Assembly: GCA_036375715.1 (NCBI GenBank)
Contig: DASVBS010000065.1
Span: 124,001-188,000 of the forward strand
Reading direction: 5' to 3'
From: Longimicrobiaceae bacterium
Lineage (GTDB): Bacteria; Gemmatimonadota; Gemmatimonadetes; Longimicrobiales; Longimicrobiaceae
DNA length: 64,000 nt
Shown piece by piece: positions 35,111 to 51,648 of this stretch. Position 1 is the stretch's first letter. Every line of letters begins with the position of its first letter. The translations under genes and the position numbers were made by a program. The notes beneath the pieces are model-generated. The model was not told where the DNA came from. It saw nothing but the letters and a program-made list of their open reading frames with translations, and made no database searches.

Positions 35111-37018
35111 TCAGCTCCGCAACACCCCCGCTCGCCGCAGCGCCTCTATCACCTGCTCGATCGACTGCCGCACGGACTGAGCGGTGGTGTCAAGGCGCAG
35201 CTCGGGCTCCTCCGGCTCCTCATAGGGGCTGCTCACGCCTGTGAAGTCCCGGATCTCACCCGCCAGCGCCCTGCGGTACAGGCCCTTGGGGTCGCGCTTG
35301 CGGCAGGTCTCCAGGTCGGCGGCCACGTGAACCTCGATGAACCGGCCTTCCGGGAAGAGAGCGCGGATTCGCTCCCGGTCCTCTCGGAAGGGCGAAACGA
35401 AGGTGCAGAGCACGATATCGCCCGACTCGAAGAAGAGCCGCGCCGTCTCTCCCACCCGGCGCAGATTCTCCCGCCGGTCCGCGTCCGAGAAGCCGAGATC
35501 GCCGCAGAGGCCGTGTCGCACCTGGTCTCCGTCCAGGAGCATCGTCTGGTGCCCTTGGGCGAAAAGCTCCTTCTCCACGCCGCGAGCGATCGTGCTCTTG
35601 CCGGACCCGGAGAGGCCGGTGAACCAGACCACCGCCGCGCCGTGACCGTTCCTCGCCTCACGCTCCTCGCGCGGAATGTTCCAGGACTGCCAGACCACAT
35701 CCGGTGAAACGGCCCGGATCGCAGGCCTCTCCGCTGGCTGCGGCGCCTCCTTCACCTCGCCGCGGATCATCCCGCCCGCCACCGTGACGTTGGTGTGCGG
35801 ATCGATCAGGATGAAGCTACCCGTCTGGCGGTTGCGCTCGTAAGGGTCGAAGAAGAGCGGCAGGCTGGTGGTGATCTCCACCCGACCGATGTCGTTCAGG
35901 CCGAAGGTCGGCACCTTCTCGCGGTGCAGCGTATCGACGTCGATGCGGTAGACGATATCGCTCACGAACGCCTGCGCCTGCCGCGTGGTGTGCATCAACA
36001 CATACGGAATGTTCCGGTCGAGCGGCTTCTCGTTCATCCAGCAGATGATCGCCTCGAACCGGTTGGCAATGGAGGGGACGTTCTTCTTCCGTACGATCAT
36101 GTCCCCGCGGCTGACGTCGATCTCGTCCTCGAGGGTGATCACAACCGACTCACCCGCGGCGGCCTCGTCCAGGATACCGTCGGCCGACTGCACGCTGGCG
36201 ATGCGGCTGCCGTGGCCGCTCGGCAGGACCACGATCTCCTCGCCGGGCTGCACCGTCCCCGAGGCGATCCGCCCGGCGAACCCGCGGAAGTCCTGGTGCG
36301 GCCGGATCACGTACTGCACCGGGAAGCGGAAATCCACCAGGTTGCGGGTCACGCCGACATTCACCGTCTCCAGGTGGTGGAGGAGCGTGCTGCCGTCGTA
36401 CCATGGCATGTTTTCGCTCTTCTCCACCACGTTGTCGCCGTGCAGCGCACTGATGGGGATGAAGGTCAGGTCGGAGATATCGAGCTTCTGCGCGAACTCG
36501 CGGTACTCGGCGACGATCTGCTCGTACACCTCCTCGTCGTAGTCCACCAGGTCCATCTTGTTGACGGCCACGACGATGTGCGGAATGCGCAGGAGGCTCG
36601 AGATGAAGCCGTGCCGCTTGGACTGCGTGAGCACCCCCTTGCGCGCGTCCACGAGCACGATCGCCAGCTCCGCCGTGGAGGCGCCGGTGACCATATTCCG
36701 GGTGTACTGCACGTGCCCCGGCGTGTCGGCGATGATGAACTTCCGCTTCGGCGTGGCGAAGTAGCGATAGGCCACGTCGATGGTGATGTTCTGCTCCCGC
36801 TCGGCGCGCAGACCGTCGGTGAGGAGCGCCAGGTTCACGTACCCTTCCCCGCGCTGCCGCGAGGTCCGTTCGATCGCCTCGAGCTGGTCCGCGAAGATGC
36901 TCTTGGTATCGTAAAGCAGCCGCCCGATGAGCGTGCTCTTTCCGTCATCGACGCTCCCCGCCGTGGTAAAGCGGAGGAGATCCATGTCGGGCGCCGCGGA
37001 TGTGGCAGTCTGAATCAT
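35111..37018 (-). CDS. cysNC: Sulfate adenylyltransferase large subunit fused to APS kinase
   Basis: Bifunctional enzyme: the N-terminal GTPase subunit drives APS synthesis together with CysD, and the C-terminal kinase phosphorylates APS to PAPS. The GTPase (about 1-440) has G1 TTAGSVDDGKSTLIGRLLYD, G3 DTPGHVQYTRNM and G4 NKMDL, then EF-Tu-like barrels. The kinase half starts near residue 445 with a P-loop WFTGLSGSGKSTIARGVEKE and DGDQVRHGLCGDLGFSDADR. At 635 residues it matches NodQ-type CysN-CysC fusions. It is last in the sulfate operon, separated from cysD by a repeat-bearing gap. The PAPS made here suits the PAPS-type CysH upstream. Confidence 0.96.
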   Translation of the reverse strand: MIQTATSAAPDMDLLRFTTAGSVDDGKSTLIGRLLYDTKSIFADQLEAIERTSRQRGEGYVNLALLTDGLRAEREQNITIDVAYRYFATPKRKFIIADTPGHVQYTRNMVTGASTAELAIVLVDARKGVLTQSKRHGFISSLLRIPHIVVAVNKMDLVDYDEEVYEQIVAEYREFAQKLDISDLTFIPISALHGDNVVEKSENMPWYDGSTLLHHLETVNVGVTRNLVDFRFPVQYVIRPHQDFRGFAGRIASGTVQPGEEIVVLPSGHGSRIASVQSADGILDEAAAGESVVITLEDEIDVSRGDMIVRKKNVPSIANRFEAIICWMNEKPLDRNIPYVLMHTTRQAQAFVSDIVYRIDVDTLHREKVPTFGLNDIGRVEITTSLPLFFDPYERNRQTGSFILIDPHTNVTVAGGMIRGEVKEAPQPAERPAIRAVSPDVVWQSWNIPREEREARNGHGAAVVWFTGLSGSGKSTIARGVEKELFAQGHQTMLLDGDQVRHGLCGDLGFSDADRRENLRRVGETARLFFESGDIVLCTFVSPFREDRERIRALFPEGRFIEVHVAADLETCRKRDPKGLYRRALAGEIRDFTGVSSPYEEPEEPELRLDTTAQSVRQSIEQVIEALRRAGVLRS

Positions 37019-37204: not shown

Positions 37205-38170
37205 TCAGAAATATCCCGCGCGCTTCCGGTCTTCCATGGCCGCTTCGCTGCGCTTGTCGTCGCTGCGACCGCCGCGCTCGGCAACGCGGGCGGCGGCGAC
37301 CTCCTGGATGATCTCCTCCACGGTGGACGCGGTACTCTCCCAGACTCCCGTGCAGGTCATGTCGCCGACGGTGCGGCAGCGGACGGTCCGGATCTCGGAG
37401 CGCTCATCGCCGACCAGGCGGTTGTGTTCGCCCACCGCGAGCAGGATTCCGTCGCGCTCCACCACCTCCCGCTGGTGCGCGAAGTAGATGCTGGGAAGCC
37501 TGATCTGTTCCTGCGCGATGTACTGCCAGACGTCCATCTCCGTCCAGTTGGAGAGCGGGAAGACGCGGAAGTGCTCGCCCAGGTTCTTGCGACCGTTGAA
37601 CAGATTCCACAGCTCGGGGCGCTGGTTCTTCGGGTCCCACTGGCCGAAGGCGTCGCGGTGGCTGAAGAAACGCTCCTTGGCACGCGCCTTTTCCTCGTCG
37701 CGGCGCCCCCCGCCGAAGGCGGCGTCGACCTTCAGCTCTCGGATGGCATCCAGCAGCGTGACGGTCTGCAGCGCGTTGCGGCTCGGGTTCGGTCCCGGCT
37801 CCTCCTGGCATCGACCCTGGTCGATCGAGTCCTGCACGTAGCGCACGATCAGCTCACAACCGACCTCCGCCACCATGGCATCGCGGAACTCGATGGTCTC
37901 GGGGAAGTTGTGCCCGGTGTCGATGTGCAGCAGCGGGAAGGGGAACTTCCCTGGCCAGAAAGCCTTGCGTGCCAGGTGCACCATGACGATCGAATCCTTG
38001 CCGCCCGAGAAGAGCATCACCGGCCGCTCGAACTGCGCCGCGACCTCGCGCATCACGAAGATCGCCTCGCTCTCGAGCTGGGCCAGGTGACTCTGGCGAT
38101 ACGAGTAGCCCGTCTGATCACCCGCTGAGGGGTCGAGCTCGAACGAATCTTTCGGCTGTGGAATAGTCAT
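37205..38170 (-). CDS. cysD: Sulfate adenylyltransferase small subunit
   Basis: PP-loop ATP pyrophosphatase that forms APS from ATP and sulfate with CysN. The PP motif is in PVMLFSGGKDSIVMVHLARK (about residue 55), followed by FPLLHIDTGHNFPETIEFRD and the family stretches FGGGRRDEEKARAKERFFSH and FPLSNWTEMDVWQYIAQEQI. At 321 residues it is complete. It starts at ATG 38170, immediately next to the stop of the SLC13 permease gene, so transport and activation of sulfate are encoded back to back. Confidence 0.96.
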   Translation of the reverse strand: MTIPQPKDSFELDPSAGDQTGYSYRQSHLAQLESEAIFVMREVAAQFERPVMLFSGGKDSIVMVHLARKAFWPGKFPFPLLHIDTGHNFPETIEFRDAMVAEVGCELIVRYVQDSIDQGRCQEEPGPNPSRNALQTVTLLDAIRELKVDAAFGGGRRDEEKARAKERFFSHRDAFGQWDPKNQRPELWNLFNGRKNLGEHFRVFPLSNWTEMDVWQYIAQEQIRLPSIYFAHQREVVERDGILLAVGEHNRLVGDERSEIRTVRCRTVGDMTCTGVWESTASTVEEIIQEVAAARVAERGGRSDDKRSEAAMEDRKRAGYF

Positions 38171-39940
38171 TTAGAACGACCAGAATAACGGGACAAAGAG
38201 TGCGATGGTGAGAATCACCGTCAGCGTCAGCGGAAACCCGAGACGGAAGTAGTCCCCGAATCGATATCCGCCCGGACCGTAGACCATGGTATTGGTCTGG
38301 TACCCGATCGGCGTCAGAAAGCTCGCCGAAGCCGCCGCCGCCAACGCGATCGCGAACGGGCGAGGGTCAGCATCGATCTGCCGGGCAGCGGCCATGGCGA
38401 TCGGGAACATCAGGACCGCGGCCGCGTTGTTGGTGATCAGCTCGGTCAGGGCAATGGTGGAGAGCACCACCCCCAGCAACACCACCAGCGCACCAGCCGA
38501 CTGAAACGTCTCCACGATCGAGCTTCCAAGCAACGCCGCAACACCCGAATTCTCGAGCGCCGAGCCGATCCCGAACGAGGCGGCGATCACGACCAGGGTG
38601 TCCATGTCGATCGCACGGCGCGCCTCGGGCAGTGACAACGCCTTTCCCACCACCAGGGTGATCGCCCCGAGAATCGCTGCGTGCACAATGGGAACCAATC
38701 CCAGTCCGGACAGGGCGACGATACCTGCCGTCACGATCCCGACGAACCAGGCCTGCCGCGTGCTCGGCGGCGGCGATCCGCCCAGGTGGGAGACGAGCAG
38801 GAAGTCGCTTCGGTTGCGCCAGCGATCGGCGAAGCCGCTGTCGGCCACCAGGAGCAGCGTATCACCGGCACGCAACACCACCTCACCCAGCTTCGCCTGC
38901 ACACGCTCGCCCGCGCGATGCATCGCCAGCACTGCCGCCTGATATCGGCTGCGGAAGTTGGACTCCTTGAGCGTCGAACCCACCAGCCGCGAGGTGCCGC
39001 TGATCACCACCTCGAAGAAGGTATGGTCGGATCCGTCGAGCCAGGCGGCGTGATGCTGCTCTGCGGGAATGAGCCCGCGGATCATCTGCAGATCCCGGAT
39101 CAGATCGACCTGGCCTACGAACGCGAGCCTATCGCCGCCGCGCAGCAGCGTGTTCGGTGTCGCGGGGGCGATGGTCTCGCCCGCACGTTCGATCTCGACC
39201 AGGAAGACCCCCTGCAGGTGGCGTAGCCCCGCCGACTCCACCGTCTGCCCGTCCAGGGGACCGCCGGGTGCCACCACCTGGTGAACCACGTACTCCCGTG
39301 ATTCTTCCTCGAACTGAACACGCGCGGGCCGCCGCTCCGGCAGCAGAATCGGGGAGAGCAACACCAGCAGGGTGATCCCCGTAACGGCGACTGGCAGGCC
39401 AATCCGCGTGATCTCGAACATCCCCATCGGCTCGAGACCGTATGCCTGCATCAAGCCCGACACCACCAGATTGGTGGACGTTCCGATCAGAGTGAGAACC
39501 CCCCCGAGGATCGTCGCGAAGCTGATCGGCATCAGATAGCGCGACGCGGACAGGCCCCTCTTGCTGGCCCAATCCGACACCTGCGGCGTCAACATCGCAA
39601 CGATCGGCGTGTTGTTGAGGAACGCCGAGGCGGCAGCCGTTGGCGCCAGTAGGCGCAGCAACCGCGGGCGACCACCGTCACCGTTCCCCAGAATCGCGGC
39701 GATGAGCGGTTGCAAGGCTCCGGTTTTCTCCACGGCCGCGGCCACCACAAAGAGCGCCGCCACGGTGATCGGGGCAGGGTTGGAAAAGCCCGCGAAGGCT
39801 TGTTCCGTCGTGATAACACCCGCCAGGAGAAGGGCGACGTCGCCACCCAGAATGGCCACCATCGGCGGGGCCACATCCCACACCATGACCGCGACCACCG
39901 CCACCACCACCAGCAGTGTGAACCAGCCTTCCCACGTCAT
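38171..39940 (-). CDS. SLC13-family permease with two TrkA-C domains, probable sulfate importer
   Basis: A 589-residue membrane protein of the SLC13/DASS group. Two hydrophobic halves flank a cytoplasmic insert of about 200 residues (roughly 210-400) that contains two TrkA-C-like domains (GGPLDGQTVESAGLRHLQGV and the later EVVLRAGDTLLLVADSGFAD). The two re-entrant signature motifs are present: LIGTSTNLVVSG and LITNNAAAVLMF. The stop touches the start of cysD and the thiosulfate sulfurtransferase gene lies upstream, so a sulfate (or other sulfur oxyanion) substrate is inferred from context, as seen for CysZ-independent SLC13 sulfate permeases. Confidence 0.9.
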   Translation of the reverse strand: MTWEGWFTLLVVVAVVAVMVWDVAPPMVAILGGDVALLLAGVITTEQAFAGFSNPAPITVAALFVVAAAVEKTGALQPLIAAILGNGDGGRPRLLRLLAPTAAASAFLNNTPIVAMLTPQVSDWASKRGLSASRYLMPISFATILGGVLTLIGTSTNLVVSGLMQAYGLEPMGMFEITRIGLPVAVTGITLLVLLSPILLPERRPARVQFEEESREYVVHQVVAPGGPLDGQTVESAGLRHLQGVFLVEIERAGETIAPATPNTLLRGGDRLAFVGQVDLIRDLQMIRGLIPAEQHHAAWLDGSDHTFFEVVISGTSRLVGSTLKESNFRSRYQAAVLAMHRAGERVQAKLGEVVLRAGDTLLLVADSGFADRWRNRSDFLLVSHLGGSPPPSTRQAWFVGIVTAGIVALSGLGLVPIVHAAILGAITLVVGKALSLPEARRAIDMDTLVVIAASFGIGSALENSGVAALLGSSIVETFQSAGALVVLLGVVLSTIALTELITNNAAAVLMFPIAMAAARQIDADPRPFAIALAAAASASFLTPIGYQTNTMVYGPGGYRFGDYFRLGFPLTLTVILTIALFVPLFWSF

Positions 39941-40128
39941 GCGGGTGACTTCATTCGTTCAGGATGGGTCCGGTAAGGCGCGGGCGGCCAGTCGTCCGGC
40001 TGCGCCCGCGCGACGAGCAGCTTCCATACCCGTTCCGCATCGAGAGCCACCGCGCCGGAGCTCGCAAGGCAAGGCCGAGAGAGCGGGCTCGCCCTCCCGG
40101 CCTTTCGACCGCTATCGCCGCTTCGCAC

Positions 40129-41013
40129 TTACTTCTCGATCGGCGCGCGCACCATGTTGCCCCATTCCGTCCAGGAGCCGTCGTAGTTGCGCACCTTGTC
40201 GAAGCCCAGCAGGTACTTCAGCACGAACCAGGTGTGGCTGCTGCGCTCCCCGATCCGGCAGTACGCGATCACGTCGTCGTCCTTCTTCAGGCCAATCTCG
40301 CCCTCGTAGATCGCCTTCAGCTCATCGGCGCTGCGAAACTCCCCGGTATCCGGATTGGCCGCCCTCGCCCAGGGGACATTCTTCGCAGTGGGAATATGTC
40401 CCCCACGCAGCGCCCCCTCCTGCGGATACTCGGGCATGTGCAGCTTGAGGCCCTTGTACTCGTCCGGGCTCCGAACGTCGACCAGGGGATTCCCCCGCTT
40501 CAGGTGCTCGAGGACGTCCTCGCGGAAGGCGCGGATTGCCGAGTCGTCGCGGGTGGGTACCGGGTACTCGGTGCGCGGGTACTGCGGCACCTCGGTGGTG
40601 AGCTCACGGCCCTCGTCCTCCCACTTCTTCCGCCCGCCGTCCATGATCTTGACCTTGTTGTGGCCGAAGAGTTGGAACACCCAGAGCGCGTAGGTCGCCC
40701 ACCAGTTGTTCTTGTCCCCGTAGAAGACGACCGTCGTGTCCGGCGAGATCCCCTTCGAGCTCATCAGCTCGGCGAAGCGTTCCGGCGTCAGGTAGTCGCG
40801 CTGCACCGGGTCATTCAGGTCGGCATGCCAGTCGATCTTCACCGCCCCGGGAATGTGCCCGGTGTCGTAGAGCAGCACATCCTCGTTGGACTCGACGATC
40901 CGGATCGAGGGGTCGTTCAGGTGCTCAGCCACCCAGTCGGTGCTGACGAGTGCCTCGGGGTGAGCGTAACCCCGGTTCTCGATCGGCGTGCTCTGCGTCG
41001 TCGTACCCGACAT
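40129..41013 (-). CDS. Thiosulfate sulfurtransferase (two-domain rhodanese)
   Basis: Two tandem rhodanese domains in 294 residues. The N-domain ([20 protein letters not shown]...) is inactive-like; the C-domain carries the active cysteine in [20 protein letters not shown], the loop typical of actinobacterial CysA2/CysA3-type thiosulfate sulfurtransferases, with [10 protein letters not shown] before it. It transfers sulfane sulfur from thiosulfate to an acceptor. The gene sits between cysH (30 bases upstream) and the permease (188 bases downstream, with one strong hairpin at 40071-40104), so it probably belongs to the same regulon. It might let the cell use thiosulfate as well as sulfate. Confidence 0.92.
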
Positions 41014-41043: not shown

Positions 41044-41760
41044 TTACAGCTGGTGAATCCCGCACTCCGTCCGGCCCAGGCCCCTCCAGCGCCCCGCCCG
41101 CTCCGGTTCCCCCACCTGCACGGGGGTTGTCAGAGGGGCGTCGCCGATGCTGGCGTATCCCAGGTCGTGCAGCGGATTGTAAGGAATCCCGTGGTCGAGA
41201 ATGAAGTTCCAGACCTGCCCCCGCGTCCAGCGGGCGAGCGGGTTCACCTTGATCCAGTCACCCACCTCGAAAATCGGGAGATGGGCGCGGGTCTCCGACT
41301 GCTCCCTCCGCCGTCCAGTAATCCAGCCGTCGAGGTTCGCCGTCGCTCGGCGGAAGGGTTCGACCTTGGAGACGCGTTGATAGAGGTCCAGGTCACGTTC
41401 CCACAAACGGGGACCGTACCGGCTTTCGAACTTATCCCGCGTGGCGGCCGGTCGATAGACCTCCAGATTGAGACCGAAATGCCGTGTGACCCGCTCCACG
41501 TGCTCCAGCGTTTCCGGAAAATGGTGGAGCGTATCAATGAAGATCACCGGCAAGCGCGGAGCCAGGCGGGAGATGTGGTACAGCACCACCAGGCTGGCGG
41601 GCCCGAATGCCGAGACCACCGCGAGCTTCGCGGGGTCGAAGGCATGGATCGCTACCCGTAGAATATCTTCTACGGGCGCGTCGTCCAGTTCTTCGTTCAG
41701 CGCCCTCCAGGCTGCGGCTGAGGAAGGCCGTGCCTCCGGGGCGAGTGTCGCGGCGCTCAT
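41044..41760 (-). CDS. cysH: Phosphoadenylyl-sulfate reductase, PAPS type
   Basis: Reduces PAPS to sulfite with thioredoxin. The 238-residue protein has the PP-loop-like VVSAFGPASLVVLYHISRLA, then PVIFIDTLHHFPETLEHVER, and the catalytic cysteine in the C-terminal ECGIH motif (GRTECGIHQL). That is its only cysteine: the CC...CxxC set that binds the [4Fe-4S] cluster of APS reductases is missing (the matching stretch reads RVSKVEPFRRA). It is therefore a PAPS reductase, in agreement with the APS kinase domain on CysNC. Its ATG overlaps the sulfite reductase stop (ATGA). Confidence 0.93.
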   Translation of the reverse strand: MSAATLAPEARPSSAAAWRALNEELDDAPVEDILRVAIHAFDPAKLAVVSAFGPASLVVLYHISRLAPRLPVIFIDTLHHFPETLEHVERVTRHFGLNLEVYRPAATRDKFESRYGPRLWERDLDLYQRVSKVEPFRRATANLDGWITGRRREQSETRAHLPIFEVGDWIKVNPLARWTRGQVWNFILDHGIPYNPLHDLGYASIGDAPLTTPVQVGEPERAGRWRGLGRTECGIHQL

Positions 41761-43451
41761 CGGGATGCTCCCGCTGGCTCCAGCGGCTCCACGCCCACGC
41801 GGTTCCAGAAATCACCGAACCGCTCCCCTTCCCGCCGCTCGTCCCGGAACCGCTCGAGCAATGGGCGTACGGTGGTGACCAGCTGATCGAGTGGGACCAG
41901 GCTGGCGTACTCGGTTCCGAGTCGCGTACCCTCCAGGTTGCCTCCCACGTAGATCACGTACTTGTTCAACGACCGCCCCACGAAAGCCAGGTCGGCCGTA
42001 TACGGCCGGGCGCACCCATTGGGGCAACCGGTCATACGGACGGAGATCGTCTCGTCGGCGAGCCCGATCCGGGAGAGCGCGACCTCCAGCTCGTCCATGA
42101 TGCCTGGAAGCACGCGCTCGGATTCCGCCACCGCGAGCGGGCAGGTGGGGATCGCCGGGCAGGCCATCGACCAGCGCCTGGCCGGAGTCAGCTCCTCTGG
42201 CGCGATCACACCGTGAGTGCGGAGGATGTCGTCGACCGCACTGCGGTCCTCCGGAGCGATGTTGACCAGGAGGAGATTCTGCTGCGTGGTGAGGTGAATG
42301 TCCGCACCGAAGCGCGCCACCACCTCGCGGATCGCGATGCGCAGCCGCAGCCCCTCGCGATCGAGCACGCGCCCGTTCTCCACCCACACCCCCCGGAACC
42401 AGCGACCGTCTCCCTGCTCGTGCCAGCCAAGGTGGTCCTCGATGCCGGAGACCTCGACGGGCAGGGGGTCCTGCAGCGGTCGGCCGAGATAACTCTCCAC
42501 CTGCTCGCGGAACCAGGGTAGCCCGCGCTCGTCCAGCACATACTTCAGACGCGCGCGTCTGCGGTTCACCCGGTTGCCGTAGTCGCGCTGCACTCCGATT
42601 ACCGCCTTGATCACGTCGATCAGCTCGTCCGGCTCGACGAAAGCGAGCGGGTCGGCGAGGCGCGGATAGGTGTCGGCCTTGTTGTGCGTCATCCCCAGAC
42701 CACCACCAACGAGCACGTTGAAGCCGCGAATGCGACCGTTCTCGGGGATCACCAGCAACCCGAGATCGTTGGAGTGCACATCGGTGCAGTTGTCGTCGGG
42801 AAAGGCAAACCCGATCTTGAACTTCCGGGGCAGGTAGCGCTCGCCGTACAGCGGGTCGGGCTCTGCCTCCTCGCGGGTAACCGACTGCCCCTCGATCCAG
42901 ATCTCGTGATATGCGCGCGAGCGCGGGAGCGTCTCATCGCGGATGCGACGCGCCCACTCGATCACCTCCTCCCGCAGGCCGCCGGCGATCGGCGCCGGGC
43001 AGGTCACCACGTTGCGGACCACGTCGCCGCAAGCTCCGAAGGTGGTCACCAGGGCGTCGTTCAGCTCGTGAATGTGGCGTCGCAGGTTCCCCTTCAGCAC
43101 ACCGTGGAATTGGAAGCCCTGGCGCGTGGTGATCCGCAGGGTGCCATTGCCATAGTCGTCCGCCAGGCGGTCGTGCAGAAGGTACTGGGCCGCGGTCAAA
43201 ACCCCGCCCGGTACCTTGGAGCGGACCATGAACTGATAAGCCGGCTCCAGCCCCGCCTTCTTCCGCTCCTTGCGCAGGTCGCGGTCTTCCTGCTGGTAGG
43301 AGCCGTGGAACTTGAGGATCTGCTTCGACGCCTCGCTGAGGTGACTGCTGTCGTTGTCCAGCTCCGCCGCGAGCCCCCCGCGCAGACCGAGGCTCTCCTC
43401 CTTCAGCCTCTCGACCTCGCTCAGGGCCACATCATCGACGATCGTGCTCAT
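41757..43451 (-). CDS. Ferredoxin-type assimilatory sulfite (nitrite/sulfite) reductase
   Basis: Six-electron reduction of sulfite to sulfide on a siroheme coupled to a [4Fe-4S] cluster. The 564-residue chain has two ferrochelatase-like halves. The first holds LRITTRQGFQFHGVLKGNLR and CGDVVRNVVTCPAPIAGG. Cluster ligands are CX5C in SMACPAIPTCPLAVAES and CX3C in RMTGCPNGCARPYTADLAFV. Context (cysH coupled downstream, ferredoxin upstream, no nitrate genes) argues for sulfite. The start is ATG 43451 with GGAAGG ribosome site; the frame upstream is not family-like. The ferredoxin 95 bases upstream is a natural electron donor. Confidence 0.93.
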   Translation of the reverse strand: MSTIVDDVALSEVERLKEESLGLRGGLAAELDNDSSHLSEASKQILKFHGSYQQEDRDLRKERKKAGLEPAYQFMVRSKVPGGVLTAAQYLLHDRLADDYGNGTLRITTRQGFQFHGVLKGNLRRHIHELNDALVTTFGACGDVVRNVVTCPAPIAGGLREEVIEWARRIRDETLPRSRAYHEIWIEGQSVTREEAEPDPLYGERYLPRKFKIGFAFPDDNCTDVHSNDLGLLVIPENGRIRGFNVLVGGGLGMTHNKADTYPRLADPLAFVEPDELIDVIKAVIGVQRDYGNRVNRRRARLKYVLDERGLPWFREQVESYLGRPLQDPLPVEVSGIEDHLGWHEQGDGRWFRGVWVENGRVLDREGLRLRIAIREVVARFGADIHLTTQQNLLLVNIAPEDRSAVDDILRTHGVIAPEELTPARRWSMACPAIPTCPLAVAESERVLPGIMDELEVALSRIGLADETISVRMTGCPNGCARPYTADLAFVGRSLNKYVIYVGGNLEGTRLGTEYASLVPLDQLVTTVRPLLERFRDERREGERFGDFWNRVGVEPLEPAGASR

Positions 43452-43546: not shown

Positions 43547-43783
43547 TCAGGCGCCGGATAGCGCCCGGTTCCGTTCGATGTACTCCGCCCACTCCGGCGG
43601 GACGTCGGTGTCCGGGAAGATCGCCTGCACCGGGCACTCCGGCTCGCACGCCCCACAGTCGATGCACTCCTCGGGGTTGATGTAGTACATGTCCTCCGCC
43701 TCGTAGATGCAGTCCACCGGGCACACTTCGACACAGCTTGCGTCCTTGGTCCCGATGCACGGCTCGGCGATCACGTACGTCAA
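43547..43783 (-). CDS. Bacterial-type ferredoxin (7Fe or 2[4Fe-4S])
   Basis: A 78-residue ferredoxin. The first set is C-X7-C-X3-C in [19 protein letters not shown] and the second is CX2CX2CX3CP in [16 protein letters not shown]. The wider first spacing is that of seven-iron ferredoxins (one [3Fe-4S], one [4Fe-4S]). Translation starts at TTG 43783, chosen because a GAAGGAG ribosome site lies seven bases before it. It is the first gene after the polycysteine leader and terminator and precedes the sulfite reductase, for which it is the likely electron donor. Confidence 0.94.
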
Positions 43784-43809
43784 CTCGGTTCTCCTTCAAT
43801 GAGGCCATG

Positions 43810-43844
43810 AAAAAAGGCCACGGCGCCGATGTGTGCCGTGGCCT
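43810..43844 (-). terminator. Attenuator terminator of the ferredoxin/sulfite reductase leader
   Basis: On the minus strand a perfect 10-bp stem (43844-43835 with 43824-43815), loop of 10, followed by six T (43815-43810). It lies after the polycysteine leader ORF and 26 bases before the ferredoxin start. The 5' arm contains GCCACGGC (43842-43835), which is also complementary to GCCGTGGC inside the leader ORF (43919-43912), giving mutually exclusive terminator and antiterminator folds. Confidence 0.85.
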
Positions 43845-43877
43845 GGAACGTTGAATGGCGTATTACCTAGCAATCCG

Positions 43878-43967
43878 CTATCCGCCGCGCCCGCCGGGCG
43901 CGCGCTCCGATGCCACGGCCCCGCTACACGCGGGACAGCAGGTGCAGCCGCAGCAACAAGCACACAT
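43878..43967 (-). CDS. Polycysteine leader peptide 1 (attenuator uORF)
   Basis: A 29-residue ORF, too short to be noticed by length, upstream of ferredoxin and sulfite reductase. It starts MCACCCGCTCCPACSGA: eight cysteines in the first 14 residues. An in-frame ATG at 44021 would extend it to 47 residues; it lies about seven bases after a possible transcription start (-10-like TATCGT at 44040-44035, no good -35), and no ribosome site is present at either ATG. The stop is TAG at 43880-43878, 33 bases before the terminator stem. By analogy with polycysteine leaders reported in mycobacteria, slow translation at low cysteine would leave 43919-43912 free to pair with the terminator 5' arm, allowing read-through. 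This is inference from sequence. Confidence 0.75.
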   Translation of the reverse strand: MCACCCGCTCCPACSGAVASERAPGGRGG

Positions 43968-44047
43968 CCGGGCGAAACCGAGCTGAGTCGGCCTCGCCGC
44001 ACGGGCGGAACGAGGGGTCATTGCGCTGGTGGACACGATACAGCTTC

Positions 44048-44569
44048 TCATTCAGGGCAGACGAGCCGGCCCGAGCCGAGCGCCGCCACCTCGATGGTCA
44101 ACTCCCTCACCTCCGCCTCTCTTTCGTCGAGCCACCACGCCCTGGGGGCCGCTCCGGGTTCTCCCCCCTCCGGTACGATGACCCAGACCGTTTCCGGCCA
44201 GAGGCGGATGTGCGTCACATCGAGCGCCGAGGGGACCGCCCGCCCGTTCGTGTGGGAGTGATAGAAGCCCACGACCGACTCGGGACTTCCGCGCAGCGTG
44301 CGCCGCACGTTGATGACCGCCCGCGGGTCGATGCTGAAGCGGTGGTGCCGCTCCGCAAGCGGCGCCTGGTTCGGGCAGGGGACCGCGCGGGTGATCAGCA
44401 CCTCCTCCGCCTCGATGCGGCCTATGAGGAGACCGCAGGCCTCCTCCGGGTAAGCCCGCGTCGCGTGAGCCCGCAGCGAATCGCGCACGGGACCGCTGAC
44501 CACCACCTGGCTGACCAGCCACGGCTGGACCGCCTCTTCTTCGAACTCCCTGGCGAGCTGTGCGGGCAT
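44048..44569 (-). CDS. JAMM/MPN-domain (M67) metallopeptidase
   Basis: A 173-residue zinc peptidase of the JAB1/MPN+ type. The full JAMM motif is visible: Glu in YPEEACGLLIG (E42/E43) and HxHx10D in GFYHSHTNGRAVPSALD (H104, H106, S114, D117). Bacterial members such as mycobacterial Mec+ cleave the C-terminus of sulfur-carrier proteins (CysO/ThiS-like) in cysteine synthesis. Here it lies between two polycysteine leaders inside the sulfur locus, so a role in releasing cysteine or sulfur from a carrier is a reasonable inference, though no carrier protein gene is in the window. No strong ribosome site is seen at ATG 44569. Confidence 0.88.
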   Translation of the reverse strand: MPAQLAREFEEEAVQPWLVSQVVVSGPVRDSLRAHATRAYPEEACGLLIGRIEAEEVLITRAVPCPNQAPLAERHHRFSIDPRAVINVRRTLRGSPESVVGFYHSHTNGRAVPSALDVTHIRLWPETVWVIVPEGGEPGAAPRAWWLDEREAEVRELTIEVAALGSGRLVCPE

Positions 44570-44587: not shown

Positions 44588-44625
44588 AAAAAGAAAACCC
44601 CGGTCCGCGTACGCGCGGGCCGGGG
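44588..44625 (-). terminator. Attenuator terminator of the JAMM gene leader
   Basis: Minus-strand hairpin: 6-bp CCCCGG/CCGGGG (44625-44620 with 44603-44598), one mismatch, then 5-bp CCGCG/CGCGG (44618-44614 with 44609-44605) and loop CGTA, followed by TTTTCTTTTT (44597-44588). It lies 19 bases before the JAMM gene. Its 5' arm CGCCCCGGCCC (44627-44617) is a perfect 11-base complement of GGGCCGGGGCG in the leader ORF (44703-44693). Confidence 0.88.
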
Positions 44626-44653
44626 CGATCTGCCTTTGTCTCCGGATCGGACG

Positions 44654-44791
44654 CTATCGGCTTACGTCGTCCACCATCGCGCAATGGCTCTCCGCCCCGG
44701 CCCCTCGACAGCGGGGACAGGCGCACATACAACACGCGCAGCAGGCAGAGTAGCGATTCACGAAACCGATCCGGTTCGTAGATTTTCCCAC
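44654..44791 (-). CDS. Polycysteine leader peptide 2 (attenuator uORF)
   Basis: A 45-residue ORF from GTG 44791 to TAG 44656-44654, with a second possible GTG at 44761 giving 35 residues. The core reads SACCACCMCACPRCRGAG: seven cysteines in 12 residues, and an eighth near the end. Predicted transcription start is about 44800, so GTG 44791 would be nearly leaderless; no ribosome site is seen. Directly after the clustered Cys codons comes GGGCCGGGGCG (44703-44693), which can pair with the 5' arm of the terminator at 44627-44617. The layout copies leader 1 while the nucleotide sequences differ, which argues for selection on the design and not for recent duplication. Confidence 0.75.
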   Translation of the reverse strand: MGKSTNRIGFVNRYSACCACCMCACPRCRGAGAESHCAMVDDVSR

Positions 44792-44796
44792 ACTTT

Positions 44797-44822
44797 AGAC
44801 TATCGGACGATAACCATAGTCT
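44797..44822. promoter_or_regulatory. Dyad bracketing the -10 box, possible operator
   Basis: AGACTAT (44797-44803) and ATAGTCT (44816-44822) are perfect 7-bp inverted repeats separated by 12 bases that contain the -10 element of the leader 2 promoter. Position and symmetry fit a dimeric repressor site. The regulator is not known. Confidence 0.5.
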
Positions 44823-44835
44823 CTGTAATCGTCAA
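44807..44835 (-). promoter_or_regulatory. Promoter of leader 2 and the JAMM gene
   Basis: Minus strand: TTGACG (44835-44830), exactly 17 bases, TATCGT (44812-44807). Start expected near 44800. The same -10 (TATCGT) recurs upstream of the second SusC gene. Confidence 0.7.
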
Positions 44836-44863: not shown

Positions 44864-46048
44864 TCAGGCCGAAGCCGTCAGCGCGTGCTCAACATCCCCG
44901 ATGATGTCGTCCGGGTGCTCGAGGCCGACGGAGATGCGGATCAGCCCGGGCACGATACCCACCTGTTGCCGCTCCTCCTCGGACAGCTTGGAGTGCGTCG
45001 TGGAGGTTGGGTGGGTGACGATGCTGCGCGTATCGCCGAGGTTCGTGCTGTGCGAGAGCATCCGCACCGAGTCGAGAAAGCGGCGAGCGCGCTCCAATCC
45101 ACCGCGGATCACGAGCACGACTATGCCGCCGCCCGCCCGCATCTGCCGCCGCGCGAGCTCGTGTTGCGGATGGCTCTCCAGGAACGGATAGCGTACCTGC
45201 TCGACCTCGGGGTGGCCCTCGAAGTGCCGCGCCAGCGCCAGCGCCGTCTCGCAGTGGCGGTCCATGCGCACCGCCAGCGTCTCCAGGCTCTTGGAGAGCA
45301 CCCACGCGTTGAAGGGCGAGATCGCGGGGCCGGTGTGCCGAGCGAAGAAGCGCAGCTCGCGCATCAGCTCCCCCGAGCCGAGGACTGCCCCGCCGAGCGT
45401 CCGCCCCTGCCCGTCGATGAACTTGGTGGCCGAGTGAACCACGATATCGGCCCCGAAATCGATCGGTCGCTGCAGGTATGGTGTGGCGAAGCAGTTATCC
45501 ACCACCAGCAGGGCGCCATGCGCGCGACACAGGCCGTTCAGCTGCGCCATGTCGATCAGGTCGAGCCCCGGGTTGGAGGGGGTCTCGACGAAGACCATGC
45601 GGGTCTCAGGGCGCATGGCAGCTTCCCAGTCAGCCGCCGTGGCGGTGGTATCGACGTAGCTCGCCGTGATGCCGAAGCGCGGAAGCACCCGCGTGAGGAG
45701 CTGGTGCGTCGATCCGAACAGCGCGCGCGACGCGACCACGTGGTCACCCGCGCTCAGCAGCGCCGCGAAGGTGGCGAACACGGCCGCCATACCGCTGGCT
45801 GTGGCGATGCCGTCCTCCGCGCCTTCGAGCGCACAGAGCTTCCGTACGAGCTCGTCGATGTTGGGGTTGGAGTAGCGACTGTAGACGTTGCCAACTTCCT
45901 CTTCGGCAAAGAGCGCCCGCGCTTGCTCCGCATTGTCGAAGACGAAGCTGGAAGTGAGGTAGAGCGGTACGGAGTGCTCGCGCTCGGGCCCGCGCGCGGC
46001 CTGCGTGCGGACGGCGAGCGTCTCCGGGTGGAACGGTCGATGGGACAT
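44864..46048 (-). CDS. metZ: O-succinylhomoserine sulfhydrylase-like transsulfuration enzyme
   Basis: A PLP enzyme of the Cys/Met metabolism family, 394 residues. PLP Lys is in VVHSATKFIDGQGRTLGGAV (about residue 205); other hallmarks are YSRYSNPNIDELVRKLCALE, ATASGMAAVFATFAALLSAG and VFVETPSNPGLDL. The text HSATKxIDGQGR is characteristic of MetZ, which condenses O-succinylhomoserine with sulfide to give homocysteine; cystathionine gamma-synthase remains an alternative. Start ATG 46048 (MSHRPFHPETLAVRTQAA), with its own promoter. It lies just upstream of the attenuated sulfur genes, providing the use for the sulfide made by sulfite reductase. Confidence 0.9.
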   Translation of the reverse strand: MSHRPFHPETLAVRTQAARGPEREHSVPLYLTSSFVFDNAEQARALFAEEEVGNVYSRYSNPNIDELVRKLCALEGAEDGIATASGMAAVFATFAALLSAGDHVVASRALFGSTHQLLTRVLPRFGITASYVDTTATAADWEAAMRPETRMVFVETPSNPGLDLIDMAQLNGLCRAHGALLVVDNCFATPYLQRPIDFGADIVVHSATKFIDGQGRTLGGAVLGSGELMRELRFFARHTGPAISPFNAWVLSKSLETLAVRMDRHCETALALARHFEGHPEVEQVRYPFLESHPQHELARRQMRAGGGIVVLVIRGGLERARRFLDSVRMLSHSTNLGDTRSIVTHPTSTTHSKLSEEERQQVGIVPGLIRISVGLEHPDDIIGDVEHALTASA

Positions 46049-46087
46049 GCAATTCACCGAGGACGAGTCACAATGAGCCCGGCTGGG

Positions 46088-46117
46088 GAGATATCGCTGC
46101 ACCCCCACTCCTGTCAA
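46088..46117 (-). promoter_or_regulatory. Promoter of metZ
   Basis: Minus strand TTGACA (46117-46112), 18 bases, TATCTC (46093-46088); with 17 bases the -10 would read ATATCT. Start near 46081 gives a 33-base leader, too short for a SAM riboswitch. The rest of the gap 46049-46396 holds loose GGAACAG-like repeats (about 46230-46285) and the SusD terminator. Confidence 0.6.
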
Positions 46118-46298
46118 TCGCCTCGGGGCGATCCGGGAGAACAGACTCGCTTCGCCCGGGCATCCAGCCGGGGGTTTTCGACCCGGTCCCCGACCGCACG
46201 AGCGGGCGTACTGCGCGGCAAGCGAGAACAGGCACCCGGAACAGGAACTCGGAAAAACGAAACCGGAACAGGGAACGAAAACAGGAAGCGACAGCGGA

Positions 46299-46330
46299 AA
46301 GGGCGGGAGCCGTACAGGCCTCCCGCCCTT
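46299..46330 (-). terminator. Terminator after the first SusD gene
   Basis: A perfect 11-bp stem (46299-46309 with 46320-46330) around a 10-base loop, followed by TTTCC on the minus strand, 66 bases after the SusD stop. Confidence 0.7.
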
Positions 46331-46396
46331 CACCTTTCCTACCCGGCCCCTCCGCCAGCGGCTCAAACCGCTGGCGGAGGAGCCAGCGCGGCGGGG

Positions 46397-48088
46397 CTAC
46401 TCCTCCGCTACCCCGTATCCCGGGTTCTGCGGGAACGGCGTGCCGTCCTCGTTCCGCGTCAGGTCGATCTGTGACTGCGGAATCGGCCGCAGGGTATGGT
46501 AATCCTGGATGTTCGGCGCCGCGTCCATGTTCCTGGCGCGGACATACTCGACCAGCTTGCCGAAGCGCACCAGGTCGAACCAGCGGTGCCCCTCGCCGAA
46601 GAGCTCGCGGCCCCGCTCGGCCAGAATGAACTCCAGGCTCATGTCGGCCGCGGTCACCTTCATCTCCTCCTCGAAGCCGGGCTTGGCCGCCCGCACGCGG
46701 ACCGCGTTCACGTACTCCGCGGCTTCGTCCAGCTTGCCCTGGCGGACCAGAGCCTCCGCCACCAGCAGGTAGGTTTCAGCCAGCCGGTAGACGAGGAAGT
46801 CGCGCTGGCTGATCTCCTCGTTCAGCGAGAGGCGGGTGGGATCCAGGTACTTGTTGAGGACCGGGAACTTGCTCGGGTTGTATTCGCCCTTGACGTTGGA
46901 GCAGTTCGGAATCGGATTCGCCTTCGCGTTCCAGAAGTCGTCCGGCTCCGTGTAGATCACGTAGGGCTTGCCACAGTACACAGCCTGATCCAGCTCGGAG
47001 GTCTTGACCTTCGGCAGGAAGATCGCGGTGTCCCCGAGCTCCATCCCCTCGGGCCGGTTGGCGCTGTTGGAAAACCAGACGTGGTTGAAGCTCAGGTCGT
47101 AGCGGTCGTCGATGCTCCGATCCCAGAGGGAATCCAGCATGTAGCCGGATGGCCGCAGCCGGCGGAAGGGACGCCCGTACTCGAGCGTACGGGTCATGCC
47201 AGGCTCGAGGTCATAGACCATCCCCCAGTAGAGATGCCAACGGTTGCCGCTCGAGCGCGTGAGCGGATCGTTGGTGGACTGGAGAGAGAAGACCACCTCC
47301 GGGCCCGCCTCGTTCTCCAGCGTCCAGATGTCGGAGTACTTCGGCATCAGGGAGTAAACTCCCGAATTGATGACCTCCTTTGCGAGCTGCTCCGCGCGCT
47401 CCGCATCACCCGGCTCGTTCCGGTAGAGAAGAGCGAGGGCGAGAAGGTGCTGCGCTGCTCCCTTGGTGGCCCGACCGGGATCCGCCGTAGGCGGTAGCGC
47501 CTGGATTGCTGCTTCCAGATCCGGAATGATCACGGTCGAGTAGACCTCCGCCACCGGAGCCCGGCGCGCCTGGTTGGTCACCGTGGTGGTCTCCTCCAGG
47601 GAGATCGGTATGTCGCCGAAGTAGCGCAGGAGATAGAAGTAGTACAGCGCGCGGAGAAAGCGTGCCTCCGCCACCCGCAAGGTCTTGGTCGCCTCGTCGA
47701 CGACGGCGGGGTCGAGGTTCGCCGCTCGCCCTACCACTGCGTTGGTGGTGTTGATGTGCCGATACACATCGTTCCAGATGTCCCGCAGCCATGTCTCCCG
47801 CGGGTCGATGCGGGCGTCGTAGGTATTCCACTGCTTCCGGCTACCGTCGGCGCCTCCCGCCCAGATGTCGGTACCGTACTCCAGGAAGGTCATGTCGCGC
47901 TCCTGGCCGTACAGGTGCCAGAGCCCGGCGTAGGCGGCATTCACCGCGGCCTCGAAACCTTCGGGTTGCTCGTAGTAGTCCGCCGTCACGCCTGCGACGA
48001 TCTTCTCGTCGAGATCGACACAGGCGGTCGCGGTCGTCAACGCCATGACCGCGGCGAGGCCGATCGAGAGTGATTGTATGGATTTCAT
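46397..48088 (-). CDS. RagB/SusD family nutrient-binding lipoprotein (pair 1)
   Basis: A 563-residue surface lipoprotein. Signal peptide and lipobox in LAAVMALTTATAC, then the SusD opening VDLDEKIVAGVTADYYEQPE and GFEAAVNAAYAGL, tetratricopeptide-like helices, and the C-terminal RRLYGEGHRW-type text (ELFGEGHRWFDLVRFGKLVE) ending LRPIPQSQIDLTRNEDGTPF. SusD proteins cap the SusC transporter and capture substrate, usually glycans or peptides. It follows its SusC partner by 94 bases. It is clearly paralogous to the second SusD (51769-53451); no glycosidase lies next to it, so the substrate is unknown. Confidence 0.93.
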   Translation of the reverse strand: MKSIQSLSIGLAAVMALTTATACVDLDEKIVAGVTADYYEQPEGFEAAVNAAYAGLWHLYGQERDMTFLEYGTDIWAGGADGSRKQWNTYDARIDPRETWLRDIWNDVYRHINTTNAVVGRAANLDPAVVDEATKTLRVAEARFLRALYYFYLLRYFGDIPISLEETTTVTNQARRAPVAEVYSTVIIPDLEAAIQALPPTADPGRATKGAAQHLLALALLYRNEPGDAERAEQLAKEVINSGVYSLMPKYSDIWTLENEAGPEVVFSLQSTNDPLTRSSGNRWHLYWGMVYDLEPGMTRTLEYGRPFRRLRPSGYMLDSLWDRSIDDRYDLSFNHVWFSNSANRPEGMELGDTAIFLPKVKTSELDQAVYCGKPYVIYTEPDDFWNAKANPIPNCSNVKGEYNPSKFPVLNKYLDPTRLSLNEEISQRDFLVYRLAETYLLVAEALVRQGKLDEAAEYVNAVRVRAAKPGFEEEMKVTAADMSLEFILAERGRELFGEGHRWFDLVRFGKLVEYVRARNMDAAPNIQDYHTLRPIPQSQIDLTRNEDGTPFPQNPGYGVAEE

Positions 48089-48182
48089 CTCTATTCTTCG
48101 TGTTCTGGGCTATGCAGGTTCGTGCGTCGAGCGCGGGGCACGGCTCAGGTGGAGCACATGACCAGCGATCTCGCGCCCGGCG

Positions 48183-51100
48183 TCAGAAGCCGACCGAAGC
48201 ACCGATGAGCAGCGTCCGGAAGCTCGGCACGCCGGTGTTGTCTCCTCCCTCCGGATCGAAGCCGGGGAAGTCGGTGAAGAGGAAGGGATCCTGCGCCTGC
48301 AGATAAACGCGCATGGAGCTCCCATCGCTCAGTCGTCCCAGAACGGACGAAGGCACGGTGTACCCGAGCGTGATGTTGCGAATGCGCCAGTGCGAGGCGT
48401 CCATGATCTGGAGTGCCCCGGCGTCGACCGCTCCCTCGGAGTCGAGGTTCGGCCGCGGCCAGCGGTTGCTCGGATTCTCCGGAGTCCAGTAGTCGATCTT
48501 CGGCTGGTTGTAGCGAGACGACATCTGGCCCGGCCAGGTGTTGGTGTCGACCATGTAGCCCCAACGGGCGGTGGCCAGCGCCGACAGGTCGAACTGTCCG
48601 AACGTAATGCGGTTCGAGAAGCTGCCCACCCAGGCCGGATGGTCGGGGTGGCGGCCAATGATCACGCGGTCGCCGTCCGCAGTGATGCGGCCGTCCCCGT
48701 CCTGGTCGACCACCTTCACGTCGCCCGGACGGCGGTCGTATTTGGCAGCCTCCTCCGCCTCGTCGAGCTGCCAGATCCCGGCGAACTCCAGCTCATAGTG
48801 GACGTCGATCGGTTTGCCGATGAACCACTCGTTCCCGACGTCGTCCTCCTTGCCGCCGTAGATGCTGACGATCTCGTTCTTGTTCTTGGTCCAGGAGATG
48901 TCGCTGGTCCAGGTGATCCCGTGCCAGTTGTCCAGGTTCACCGTCGAGAGCGCCACCTCCACGCCGGTGTTGCGGGTCTCACCGATGTTCTGCAGGACGC
49001 TGGTGAAGCCGGTACTGCCCGGGAGCTGCCGCTCCATCAGCAGGTCGTGCGTATCCTGGCGGTAGAAGTCTATCGCGCCACTCAACCGGTTGTTGAGCAT
49101 CGCGAAGTCGACACCGACATCGAACTGGTCCGTCTTCTCCCACTCCAGCTCGGGATTCGCGAGATCGGCGGGCTCGAAGCCGAACGCGCCTTCACCACCG
49201 AACGAATAGACGGTGCGGCCGAGCGAACCCTGCGTCTGATAGGGCGCGATGGCGGTGTTGCCCACCCGGCCGTAGCTGGTGCGGATGCTCAGATCGGTGA
49301 ACAGCGACTGGTTCTGCATGAACGGCTCGTCACTGAGCCTCCACTTCAGGGCACCCGACGGGAAGAACTCGCACTTATTTCCCGGGGCGAGGCGGCTGGA
49401 GCAGTCCTGCCGGCCGGTGAGGGTCAGGTAATAACGACCCAGCAAGGTGTAGTTGACGCGCCCCATGAAGGACTGCAGCACCCACTCCTCGAGATCCGCG
49501 CCGACATCGGTCACCCGCCCCGCGGTGCCGATGTTGTGGTAGAGCTGGTACTCATAAGGCAGATCCTGGACGGTTGCCTCCGTCATGTTCTCCTGCTGGC
49601 GCTGGATCTCGTAGAGCAGCGTGGCGTCGACCTGGTGCCTGTCGCCTAACTGCTTGTTGTAGTTGAGCTGCGTCGTGGAGACGTAGTTGAGCGTCTGGCT
49701 TCGCTGGACCTCGGCGCGATTGCTGCTCCCCTTGAAATCGTCGGTCAACGCGCCGACGAACTCACCCGCGCGAACGAAGGTGAGGTCCGCGCCGAAGACC
49801 GTCCGCAGGTTCAACGCGTCGGTCAGATCGTACGCGACGAAAGCGTTCCCGAAGGTCCGCGTGCGCAGCCGGTCGTTCTTGCGGTGCAGCGCATCGACCA
49901 GCGGGTTCCACATCTGCGCGTCCCATGGGGTGTTGAACGCGAGCGGCTCTCCGTTCTCGTCGAAGGCCGGCGCGAGAGGATCTATCGACAAAGCTTCGCC
50001 CCAGATGCCATCTCCCCGTCCGATGTTCTGGAAAGAGTTGGTGACGTTCGCGGTCAGCCCCGCGTTGAGCCTACCGGAGGTGTGCTCGATGCTGCCACTG
50101 GCGCCCCGGCGCATGAAGTTCTGCCCGATGGTGACGCCTTTTTCGTAGAGGTAGTTCCCGCCGATGGCAAAGCGAGTGCTCTCGTTGCCGCCGGTGATGG
50201 TGAGCTGGTGGTTCTGGATCGCTCCGTTACGGGAGATGAGATCCGGGTAGTCGGCGTCGACCCCGCTGCGCATGCCTTCCAGCTCACCGGCAGTAAAGGC
50301 GACGAGATCCCCCTCCTCGCAGTAGAGTTGACCCTCGGGACAGACGTAGCGCCCTGTGGTACGCACCGCTTCGCGACGGAAGTTCGCGAACTCCTCGGCG
50401 TTGAACACCTCCACCATGTTGTGGATCTGCTCGACGCCGTAGTAGGTGTCGTAGGTGACGCGGGTGCCTCCCCCCTGCCCCGACTTGGTGGTGATGAGGA
50501 TCACCCCGTTGGCGCCGCGCGAGCCGTAGACCGCGGTGGCCGACGCGTCCTTGAGAACGTCAATGGAGGCAATCGTCTGCGGGTTGATGTCGTTGAGACC
50601 GCCCGCGATGGCGACGCCATCCACGACGATCAGCGGATCGTTGCCCGCTGAAAGCGAACGCTCGCCGCGAATGCGGATCTCCGGCGCGTCTCCGGGGACG
50701 TAGCCGTTGGTCTGCACGTCCAGCCCCGCAACGCGACCTTTGAGCGCCTCACCCACACTCGGCGTGGGGATCTGCGCGATCTCCTCGGCGCGCACCGAAG
50801 CGACCGCCCCGGTGACATCCTGCCGTTGCTGGGTGCCGTAGCCGACCGCGACCACCCCTTCGAGCTCGACCGCCGACGCGGCGAGCTGGAAGCTCACGGT
50901 GGCAGTCTGGCCCGCAGTCACCGTCACCGTTTGCGTCTCCGTCTCGTAGCCGATCAGGCCTGCTCTGACCTGGTGGGTGCCGGCAGGGACGTTGGACACC
51001 GTGAACTGGCCACTCTGGTCGGTGACCGCTCCCAAGCCGGTGTCCTCACCGACGGTGACCGTTGCGCCAGATAGCGGCGCGCCACCCTCATCGGTGACCT

Positions 51101-51185
51101 GACCCGTGATCTGTCCGCCTGCCTGCGCAGACGCCTGCGTAGCCGTAAAGCATATGGCTAGCAGGAGGAGCACGAAGCGTTTCAT
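48183..51185 (-). CDS. SusC/RagA TonB-linked outer membrane transporter (pair 1)
   Basis: A 1000-residue transporter. Signal peptide MKRFVLLLLAICFTATQASA; a carboxypeptidase-regulatory-like domain (GGQITGQVTDEGGAPLSGAT...) at about 25-105; the TonB-box-like EGVVAVGYGTQQRQDVTGAV; plug domain with the SusC signature KDASATAVYGSRGANGVILI; and a long barrel ending in LLIGASVGF. Start ATG 51185 with AAGGAGA eight bases upstream. The promoter lies about 460 bases upstream (51677-51649), so the mRNA has an unusually long leader. It is paralogous to the second SusC. Confidence 0.94.
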   Translation of the reverse strand: MKRFVLLLLAICFTATQASAQAGGQITGQVTDEGGAPLSGATVTVGEDTGLGAVTDQSGQFTVSNVPAGTHQVRAGLIGYETETQTVTVTAGQTATVSFQLAASAVELEGVVAVGYGTQQRQDVTGAVASVRAEEIAQIPTPSVGEALKGRVAGLDVQTNGYVPGDAPEIRIRGERSLSAGNDPLIVVDGVAIAGGLNDINPQTIASIDVLKDASATAVYGSRGANGVILITTKSGQGGGTRVTYDTYYGVEQIHNMVEVFNAEEFANFRREAVRTTGRYVCPEGQLYCEEGDLVAFTAGELEGMRSGVDADYPDLISRNGAIQNHQLTITGGNESTRFAIGGNYLYEKGVTIGQNFMRRGASGSIEHTSGRLNAGLTANVTNSFQNIGRGDGIWGEALSIDPLAPAFDENGEPLAFNTPWDAQMWNPLVDALHRKNDRLRTRTFGNAFVAYDLTDALNLRTVFGADLTFVRAGEFVGALTDDFKGSSNRAEVQRSQTLNYVSTTQLNYNKQLGDRHQVDATLLYEIQRQQENMTEATVQDLPYEYQLYHNIGTAGRVTDVGADLEEWVLQSFMGRVNYTLLGRYYLTLTGRQDCSSRLAPGNKCEFFPSGALKWRLSDEPFMQNQSLFTDLSIRTSYGRVGNTAIAPYQTQGSLGRTVYSFGGEGAFGFEPADLANPELEWEKTDQFDVGVDFAMLNNRLSGAIDFYRQDTHDLLMERQLPGSTGFTSVLQNIGETRNTGVEVALSTVNLDNWHGITWTSDISWTKNKNEIVSIYGGKEDDVGNEWFIGKPIDVHYELEFAGIWQLDEAEEAAKYDRRPGDVKVVDQDGDGRITADGDRVIIGRHPDHPAWVGSFSNRITFGQFDLSALATARWGYMVDTNTWPGQMSSRYNQPKIDYWTPENPSNRWPRPNLDSEGAVDAGALQIMDASHWRIRNITLGYTVPSSVLGRLSDGSSMRVYLQAQDPFLFTDFPGFDPEGGDNTGVPSFRTLLIGASVGF

Positions 51186-51648
51186 CGATGGTTCTCCTTG
51201 TGTGAGATCGATGAAGGATGGTCGGCACAATGCCGGCCGGGGTACGGCGAAACGAAGCGAGAAGAGCTTGCAGTTGGGGGTCCGCCAGAGGGGGGAGGGG
51301 TGGCGGAGGAGATCTGTAGGGGTACCTGCACCGACCGCGGGGAGCAGGTCGGACGAGGAGCGCAACGCTTCCGCGTGCGCGACGGTGGAGGTTGTACGGA
51401 CCGGACAAGGGAGCGACCCCGCACGGCAGACTCTCCTGCTCGAGAATCGAGTTCCGGCTGCGGACGGTTCTTGCTGTCAGGTCTGGCTCGGAATTGAGAA
51501 GGCCGGCACGGGGGGCACAGCCTCTCGGTTCACGATATCGGTAGCGCGATAAGGTCAGATCCGAGCTGTAGGGTAATCTGCGCGGCGGCTCGTCGCGGGA
51601 GGTGCAGCGGCGAGCGCCATCGCCAGGCATGTTGCGTTTGCAGGGGCG

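Follow-up and report, generated by a model that had tools for sequence, protein, structure and literature searches.

Tandem cysteine-codon leaders ahead of a sulfate assimilation operon and a predicted cysteine attenuation system in Gemmatimonadota

Two leaders rich in cysteine codons lie in a sulfate assimilation operon of a Longimicrobiaceae bacterium, and both are likely, with a probability of about 0.83, to control transcription by trp-type, ribosome-mediated attenuation in response to charged tRNA-Cys. This reading is built on the sequences in a stretch of 64,000 nucleotides (the window) and on conservation, covariation, codon bias and gene context, all of which were observed; transcription, translation, stalling and a cysteine response of the leaders are predicted from them. 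About 45 Cys leaders with terminators were found in Gemmatimonadota.

Anatomy of the two leaders

All features described here lie on the minus strand. The order in the window is leader 1, the gene of a JAMM (Prok-JAB) peptidase (44048..44569; PF14464, E=1e-22), leader 2, ferredoxin (43547..43783; TTG start at 43783, SD AAGGAG at 43796-43791), assimilatory sulfite reductase hemoprotein (41757..43451), PAPS/APS reductase (cysH; 41044..41760), rhodanese, an SLC13/CitMHS-type transporter and cysD (37205..41013), and a fusion of GTP-binding protein and APS kinase (cysNC; 35114..37018).

Leader 2 occupies an open frame between JAMM and ferredoxin (43878..44051), which contains MCACCCGCTCCPAC and has in-frame ATGs at 44051, 44021 and 43967. 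From 43967 to 43878 it translates to MCACCCGCTCCPACSGAVASERAPGGRGG followed by a stop, with eight cysteines within the first 14 residues, exactly where the first-pass annotation had placed them upstream of ferredoxin and sulfite reductase. The eight Cys codons (43926..43964) form the predicted stall zone. The annotation had let the peptide start at 43967; its frame and Cys run stand, but the true start is probably upstream. Because the frame is open there, with one ATG at 44021 and another, overlapping the JAMM stop as ATGA, at 44051, the peptide probably comprises 47 or 57 amino acids, and an upstream start would also remove the puzzle of a missing ribosome site at 43967. The second leaders of three relatives (G015, G016 and G018) have an in-frame ATG 14-18 codons ahead of the scan start as well, that of G018 behind GGAAG.

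Past the Cys codons of leader 2 lies the putative antiterminator arm GCCGTGGC (43912..43919), which codes for Ala-Val-Ala. As originally proposed, it can pair with the 5' arm of the terminator, being the exact complement of GCCACGGC at 43842-43835. Terminator 2 (43810..43844) consists of AGGCCACGGC (43844-43835) and GCCGTGGCCT (43824-43815), which form 10 perfect base pairs around a 10-nt loop, and of a T-run at 43815-43810. The earlier description of a 10-bp stem plus six T before the ferredoxin ribosome site is accurate as to the perfect stem and the six T, of which, however, the first doubles as the last stem base. Taken alone, the arm pairing of leader 2 is weak in terms of duplex energy (18 of 300 shuffles were equally good); it recurs in three homologues of this leader, where 1, 18 and 1 of 300 shuffles were as good. 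In leader 2, folding gave no clear, strong 1:2 hairpin that would take up arm 2. An equilibrium fold of the full leader 2 transcript, in which arm 2 pairs with sequence past the T-run, was discarded because the terminator would already have formed by the time that RNA is made.

Leader 1, which the first-pass annotation had missed, was found by a both-strand scan about 700 nt upstream of leader 2, between the gene of a Cys/Met-metabolism PLP enzyme and JAMM. Its ORF (44654..44761) has a GTG start and encodes MNRYSACCACCMCACPRCRGAGAESHCAMVDDVSR with nine cysteines. A promoter-like site, TTGACG-N17-TATCGT (44807..44835), whose score is equalled in 0.7% of random 120-nt windows, places the -10 box 45 nt ahead of the start. 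The 10-nt arm GGGCCGGGGC (44694..44703) is the exact complement of the 5' arm of terminator 1 (44588..44626; GCCCCGGCCCGCG/CGCGGACCGGGG, tail TTTTCTTTTT), and this pairing was matched by none of 300 shuffles. A promoter scan of 41 leaders detected no recognisable promoter belonging to leader 2, nor a promoter-like site at any leader of its type (type B, see below). The window is therefore predicted to contain two attenuators in series, leader 2 being the second, internal one.

Distribution and types of leaders in Gemmatimonadota

The closest matches of the window's sulfite reductase are from Gemmatimonadota, and the initial leader set was collected via this protein, ferredoxin being too common as a query. 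Among 395 sampled Gemmatimonadota genomes, 27 had a strong sulfite reductase match, and in 24 of these a Cys-cluster ORF is followed 20-45 nt further on by a terminator. The three exceptions, where no Cys leader was found, are G172, G420 and G415, the last with a short contig. Outside this sample, no Cys leader was seen in G127, in G131 or on the 6.1-kb contig of G001 that bears the sulfite reductase gene (sir). Loss in close relatives had been named beforehand as a refuting result, and for the most part it is not what was found: three relatives keep the second leader, its GCCGTGG core and the matching terminator arm, and one, G001, shows no leader on its contig. Around 73 more distant sulfite reductase loci, nearly all from other phyla by record title, we found no leader and a single spurious match.

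The leaders fall into five types. Type A comprises leader 1 of the window and leaders of G008, G015, G016 and G018; type B comprises leader 2 and the second leaders of the latter three genomes, all with the GCCGTGG core coding for Ala-Val. In these three relatives A is directly followed by B, whereas the window has JAMM between them. Type C includes 13 sequences (e.g. MIRRHTTKACCPLCCAMCARPSGSGRGCGAVMTGLQ), and type D two, in G085 and G086, before a cysJ-like gene that was named by reading its N-terminus. Type E leaders (15-18 amino acids, MACCCM...) mostly precede cysH-like genes.

Further leaders were found with covariance models of types C and A/D. These models include the Cys codons and hence are not fully blind, and matches covering the terminator part alone (e.g. 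positions 147-186) resemble ordinary terminators and were left uncounted. On inspection the full-length members carry Cys runs and terminators; several occur in genomes without a sir match, and their gene context is independent of the models. Such leaders precede cysH in G204, a nitrite/sulfite reductase-like gene in G271, and an ATP-grasp gene with an SfnG-like monooxygenase in G003, G245, G006 and G009. The leaders before cysteine synthase, MetN-like, porin-like and SusC-like genes described below also came from this model search.

The genes downstream of leaders include those for sulfite reductase, CysH, APS kinase, a CysJ-like protein, cysteine synthase, TauE/SafE and a MetN-like ABC protein. 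Cys leaders reading MTNAARCCTCRCIARL... stand directly before cysteine synthase in G016 and G018 (minus strand; L241 1568-1669 and L242 1573-1671). Of two leaders in G020 (minus strand; L244 1570-1638 and L233 1571-1645), the first precedes the MetN-like gene, possibly encoding a transporter for cystine or methionine uptake, and the second looks similar. Leaders of the form MCCRS(M/V)CCGRS... (minus strand; L218 3909-3998 and L217 1934-2020) are found before the gene of a porin-like outer-membrane protein in G200 and G399; this porin, like the SusC-like receptor behind a leader in G221, has no obvious link to cysteine.

Terminator enrichment, pairing and codon usage

In 484 kb of Gemmatimonadota loci, chosen partly for lying by sir, 20 of 37 short Cys-cluster ORFs (54%) are followed by a strong terminator no more than 60 nt away. 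The same rate is 0.3-4% for clusters of abundant residues (Ser, 3/999; Ala, 16/825; Arg, 21/1329; Leu, 7/167), and clusters of His exceed these other residues (6/31). Runs of Cys codons were discarded as evidence by themselves because poly-Cys patterns gave 22 matches in the window's own genome and 25 in the reversed control.

The proposal that a Cys leader, a terminator and a mutually exclusive antiterminator form one unit with a sulfur-assimilation operon is supported by an anatomy that is conserved phylum-wide and shows covariation. In the 13 type C sequences all 104 cells of the antiterminator helix are paired, compared with 38-63% in slid-register controls. The helix covaries, with GU, AU and GC at one position and a GC-to-AU change at another, and its covariation score was reached by 3 of 500 shuffles. 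The type C terminator helix is paired in 99.3% of cells and has compensatory changes at two pairs; ten of the 13 sequences can form a perfect 1:2 hairpin as well. Covariation among related genomes, which the first-pass annotation had suggested looking for, is thus seen in type C, and for the window's own leader type there is conservation only, across four genomes. By duplex energy relative to shuffles, pairing is strong in leader 1 and in the leaders G018b and G015b, marginal in many others, and no better than in shuffles in G015a, G018a and most of type E. In all five type E leaders tested the arm lies on the stop codon.

Cysteine codons of the leaders are biased towards UGU. The ratio of UGU to UGC is 154:63 (71% UGU) in leaders and 34:199 (about 15%) in a gene reference consisting of 11 window genes and the sulfite reductase frames, which corresponds to an odds ratio of 14, although both this and the enrichment test overstate independence as the sequences are related. 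The usual tRNA-Cys decodes UGU through wobble pairing. The choice of this codon may favour stalling, or it may keep the Cys run from forming GC pairs.

Promoter-like scores of at least 9 occur ahead of 30 of the 41 leaders, compared with 0.7% of random windows, and most leaders of types A, C and E have sites of the form TTGACA-N17/18-TAnnnT. Many type C leaders have only 7-10 nt between the end of the -10 hexamer and the ATG, and for these a leaderless or nearly leaderless mRNA is therefore predicted.

Proposed mechanism, alternatives and known systems

We propose that, when Cys-tRNA is scarce, a ribosome would stall on the Cys codons and leave arm 2, just past them, free to pair with arm 3, the 5' arm of the terminator. 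RNA polymerase would then read into JAMM in the case of leader 1, and into the ferredoxin, sulfite reductase and cysH genes in the case of leader 2. With plentiful Cys-tRNA the ribosome would reach the stop codon, and arm 2 would re-pair with the Cys-codon region, or the ribosome would separate arms 2 and 3. The terminator (3:4) would form and transcription would end. Translation of leader 2 is probably coupled to that of JAMM through the ATGA overlap. Since it is apparently promoterless and lies downstream of JAMM, the sulfite reductase genes would be gated twice.

For RNA extending to the end of arm 3, the equilibrium probability that the leader segment holds this arm was modelled. Averaged over 41 leaders, it is 0.72 if the ribosome sits on the first of the Cys codons, 0.71 if it sits on the last one and 0.33 if it is at the stop. 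The modelled switch is small in both window leaders (0.70 stalled and 0.55 at the stop for leader 2; 0.83 to 0.75 for leader 1), and it is clearer in many relatives than in leader 2. For type E leaders, arm 2 lies under a ribosome that has reached the stop. The weak point for leader 2 is what frees terminator 2 in cysteine-rich cells; a ribosome at the leader stop, between arms 2 and 3, may hinder their pairing.

On a wider scale, we lean towards a phylum-wide cysteine regulon in Gemmatimonadota in which leader peptides would attenuate transcription and UGU codons, which are rare in the genes, would act as the sensor. In the window's lineage, two such devices in series would make the response steeper and give JAMM and sulfite reduction a set point each.

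An improbable alternative is translational attenuation, in which the leader governs access to the downstream ribosome site and not transcription. Mycobacterial polycysteine sORFs, on which it is modelled, share the sensed codon and the kinds of genes with the leaders described here; moreover, several leaders of type C have the look of a leaderless start, and leader 2 has the ATGA coupling. What speaks for termination is the GC-rich hairpin with a T-rich tail behind every listed leader, a regularity that is partly built in because listing required a hairpin or a strong Cys cluster. In addition, the type C terminator has a covarying competitor arm, and the hairpin of terminator 2 in the window leaves the downstream SD uncovered.

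It is very improbable that leader 2 is a chance Cys-rich frame in GC-rich DNA, accompanied by an ordinary terminator behind JAMM. Such a coincidence would agree with the shuffling result for leader 2 alone, and it is already contradicted by conservation, the tandem being retained in three relatives. The terminator enrichment at Cys clusters, the UGU bias and the lack of leaders at the 73 sir loci outside the sampled Gemmatimonadota set also argue against chance. Slightly less probable still is a functional Cys-rich micro-protein that acts in trans by binding metal or by redox chemistry. Although many cysteines and conserved presence would be expected of it, the peptides vary widely in sequence and in length (15 to about 47 amino acids), and where residues past the Cys run are conserved (AVA, GSGRGCGA), they fall on the pairing arm or next to it. 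Least probable is a riboswitch that binds a protein or a ligand and whose ORF is incidental, which the terminator/antiterminator logic would suit equally well, given that no conserved aptamer-like domain was found apart from the arms and that an Rfam scan of the window region and seven related loci returned no riboswitch or leader at the leader sites.

Ribosome-mediated transcription attenuation, the reading we prefer, is a known mechanism, and for the amino acid there are partial precedents. Like the trp, his and ilv attenuators, the leaders combine an ORF of regulatory codons, an antiterminator competing with an intrinsic terminator, and an operon that makes the sensed amino acid; they differ in sensing cysteine, in standing two in series before one operon, in occurring in Gemmatimonadota, and in that several members are likely leaderless. 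Cys leaders without conserved terminator hairpins were predicted in Mycobacterium, P. acnes and B. longum (Seliverstov 2005, PMC1262725), and one mycobacterial polycysteine leader is ribosome-occupied (Shell 2015, PMC4633059). A passage in PMC13236596, citing Canestrari 2020 (doi 10.1111/mmi.14498), attributes translation attenuation to the mycobacterial polycysteine sORFs. These sORFs are leaderless Cys-codon leaders ahead of cys genes, and part of the family described here may share the leaderless start; in contrast to their terminator-free, translational design, the Gemmatimonadota leaders have intrinsic terminators and covarying antiterminators. The uORFC-8-2 motif before cysS in Rhodobacterales (PMC8632094) likewise has Cys codons in a uORF and a terminator stem with a U-run, and Cys-tRNA attenuation has been proposed for it. 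However, this alphaproteobacterial motif has two tandem Cys codons near positions 14-15 and is confined to cysS, whereas the Gemmatimonadota leaders have about 3-9 Cys codons, another layout, and sulfate assimilation and cysteine synthase genes downstream. Two leader ORFs acting successively are known from the tandem attenuators of Salmonella mgtCBR (PMC3641672), where signals and genes are different; the two leaders of the window share one amino acid.

In open-licence papers we found no description of Gemmatimonadota leader peptides or of Cys leaders before cysK. There thus appears to be no earlier description of such leaders in this phylum, of an intrinsic-terminator form serving sulfate assimilation, or of a tandem that senses one and the same amino acid. 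A covarying, terminator-based cysteine attenuator across the phylum would bridge the terminator-free mycobacterial case and the predicted Rhodobacterales cysS case and provide Gemmatimonadota with a readable sulfur regulon. The natural double attenuator would be a test case for two equal switches in series.

Some observations concern neighbouring features. Directly upstream of the sulfur operon (44864-51365, minus strand), the PLP enzyme gene is accompanied by SusD-like and SusC-like genes. This SusCD pair may import a sulfur compound, because a Cys leader precedes a SusC-like gene in G221 (L215). Near the cys operon of G306, a TPP riboswitch was detected above the Rfam cut-off (L173 651-760, minus strand; 59.4 bits). 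Finally, a short ORF with a His cluster (MHHRHHHHHP...; L044 6556-6621, minus strand) stands before a strong hairpin that resembles a terminator and has equivalents in L043, L046, L064 and L162 of related genomes. These ORFs resembled a second leader family; in L043 the site seems to be antisense to a cysG-like frame.
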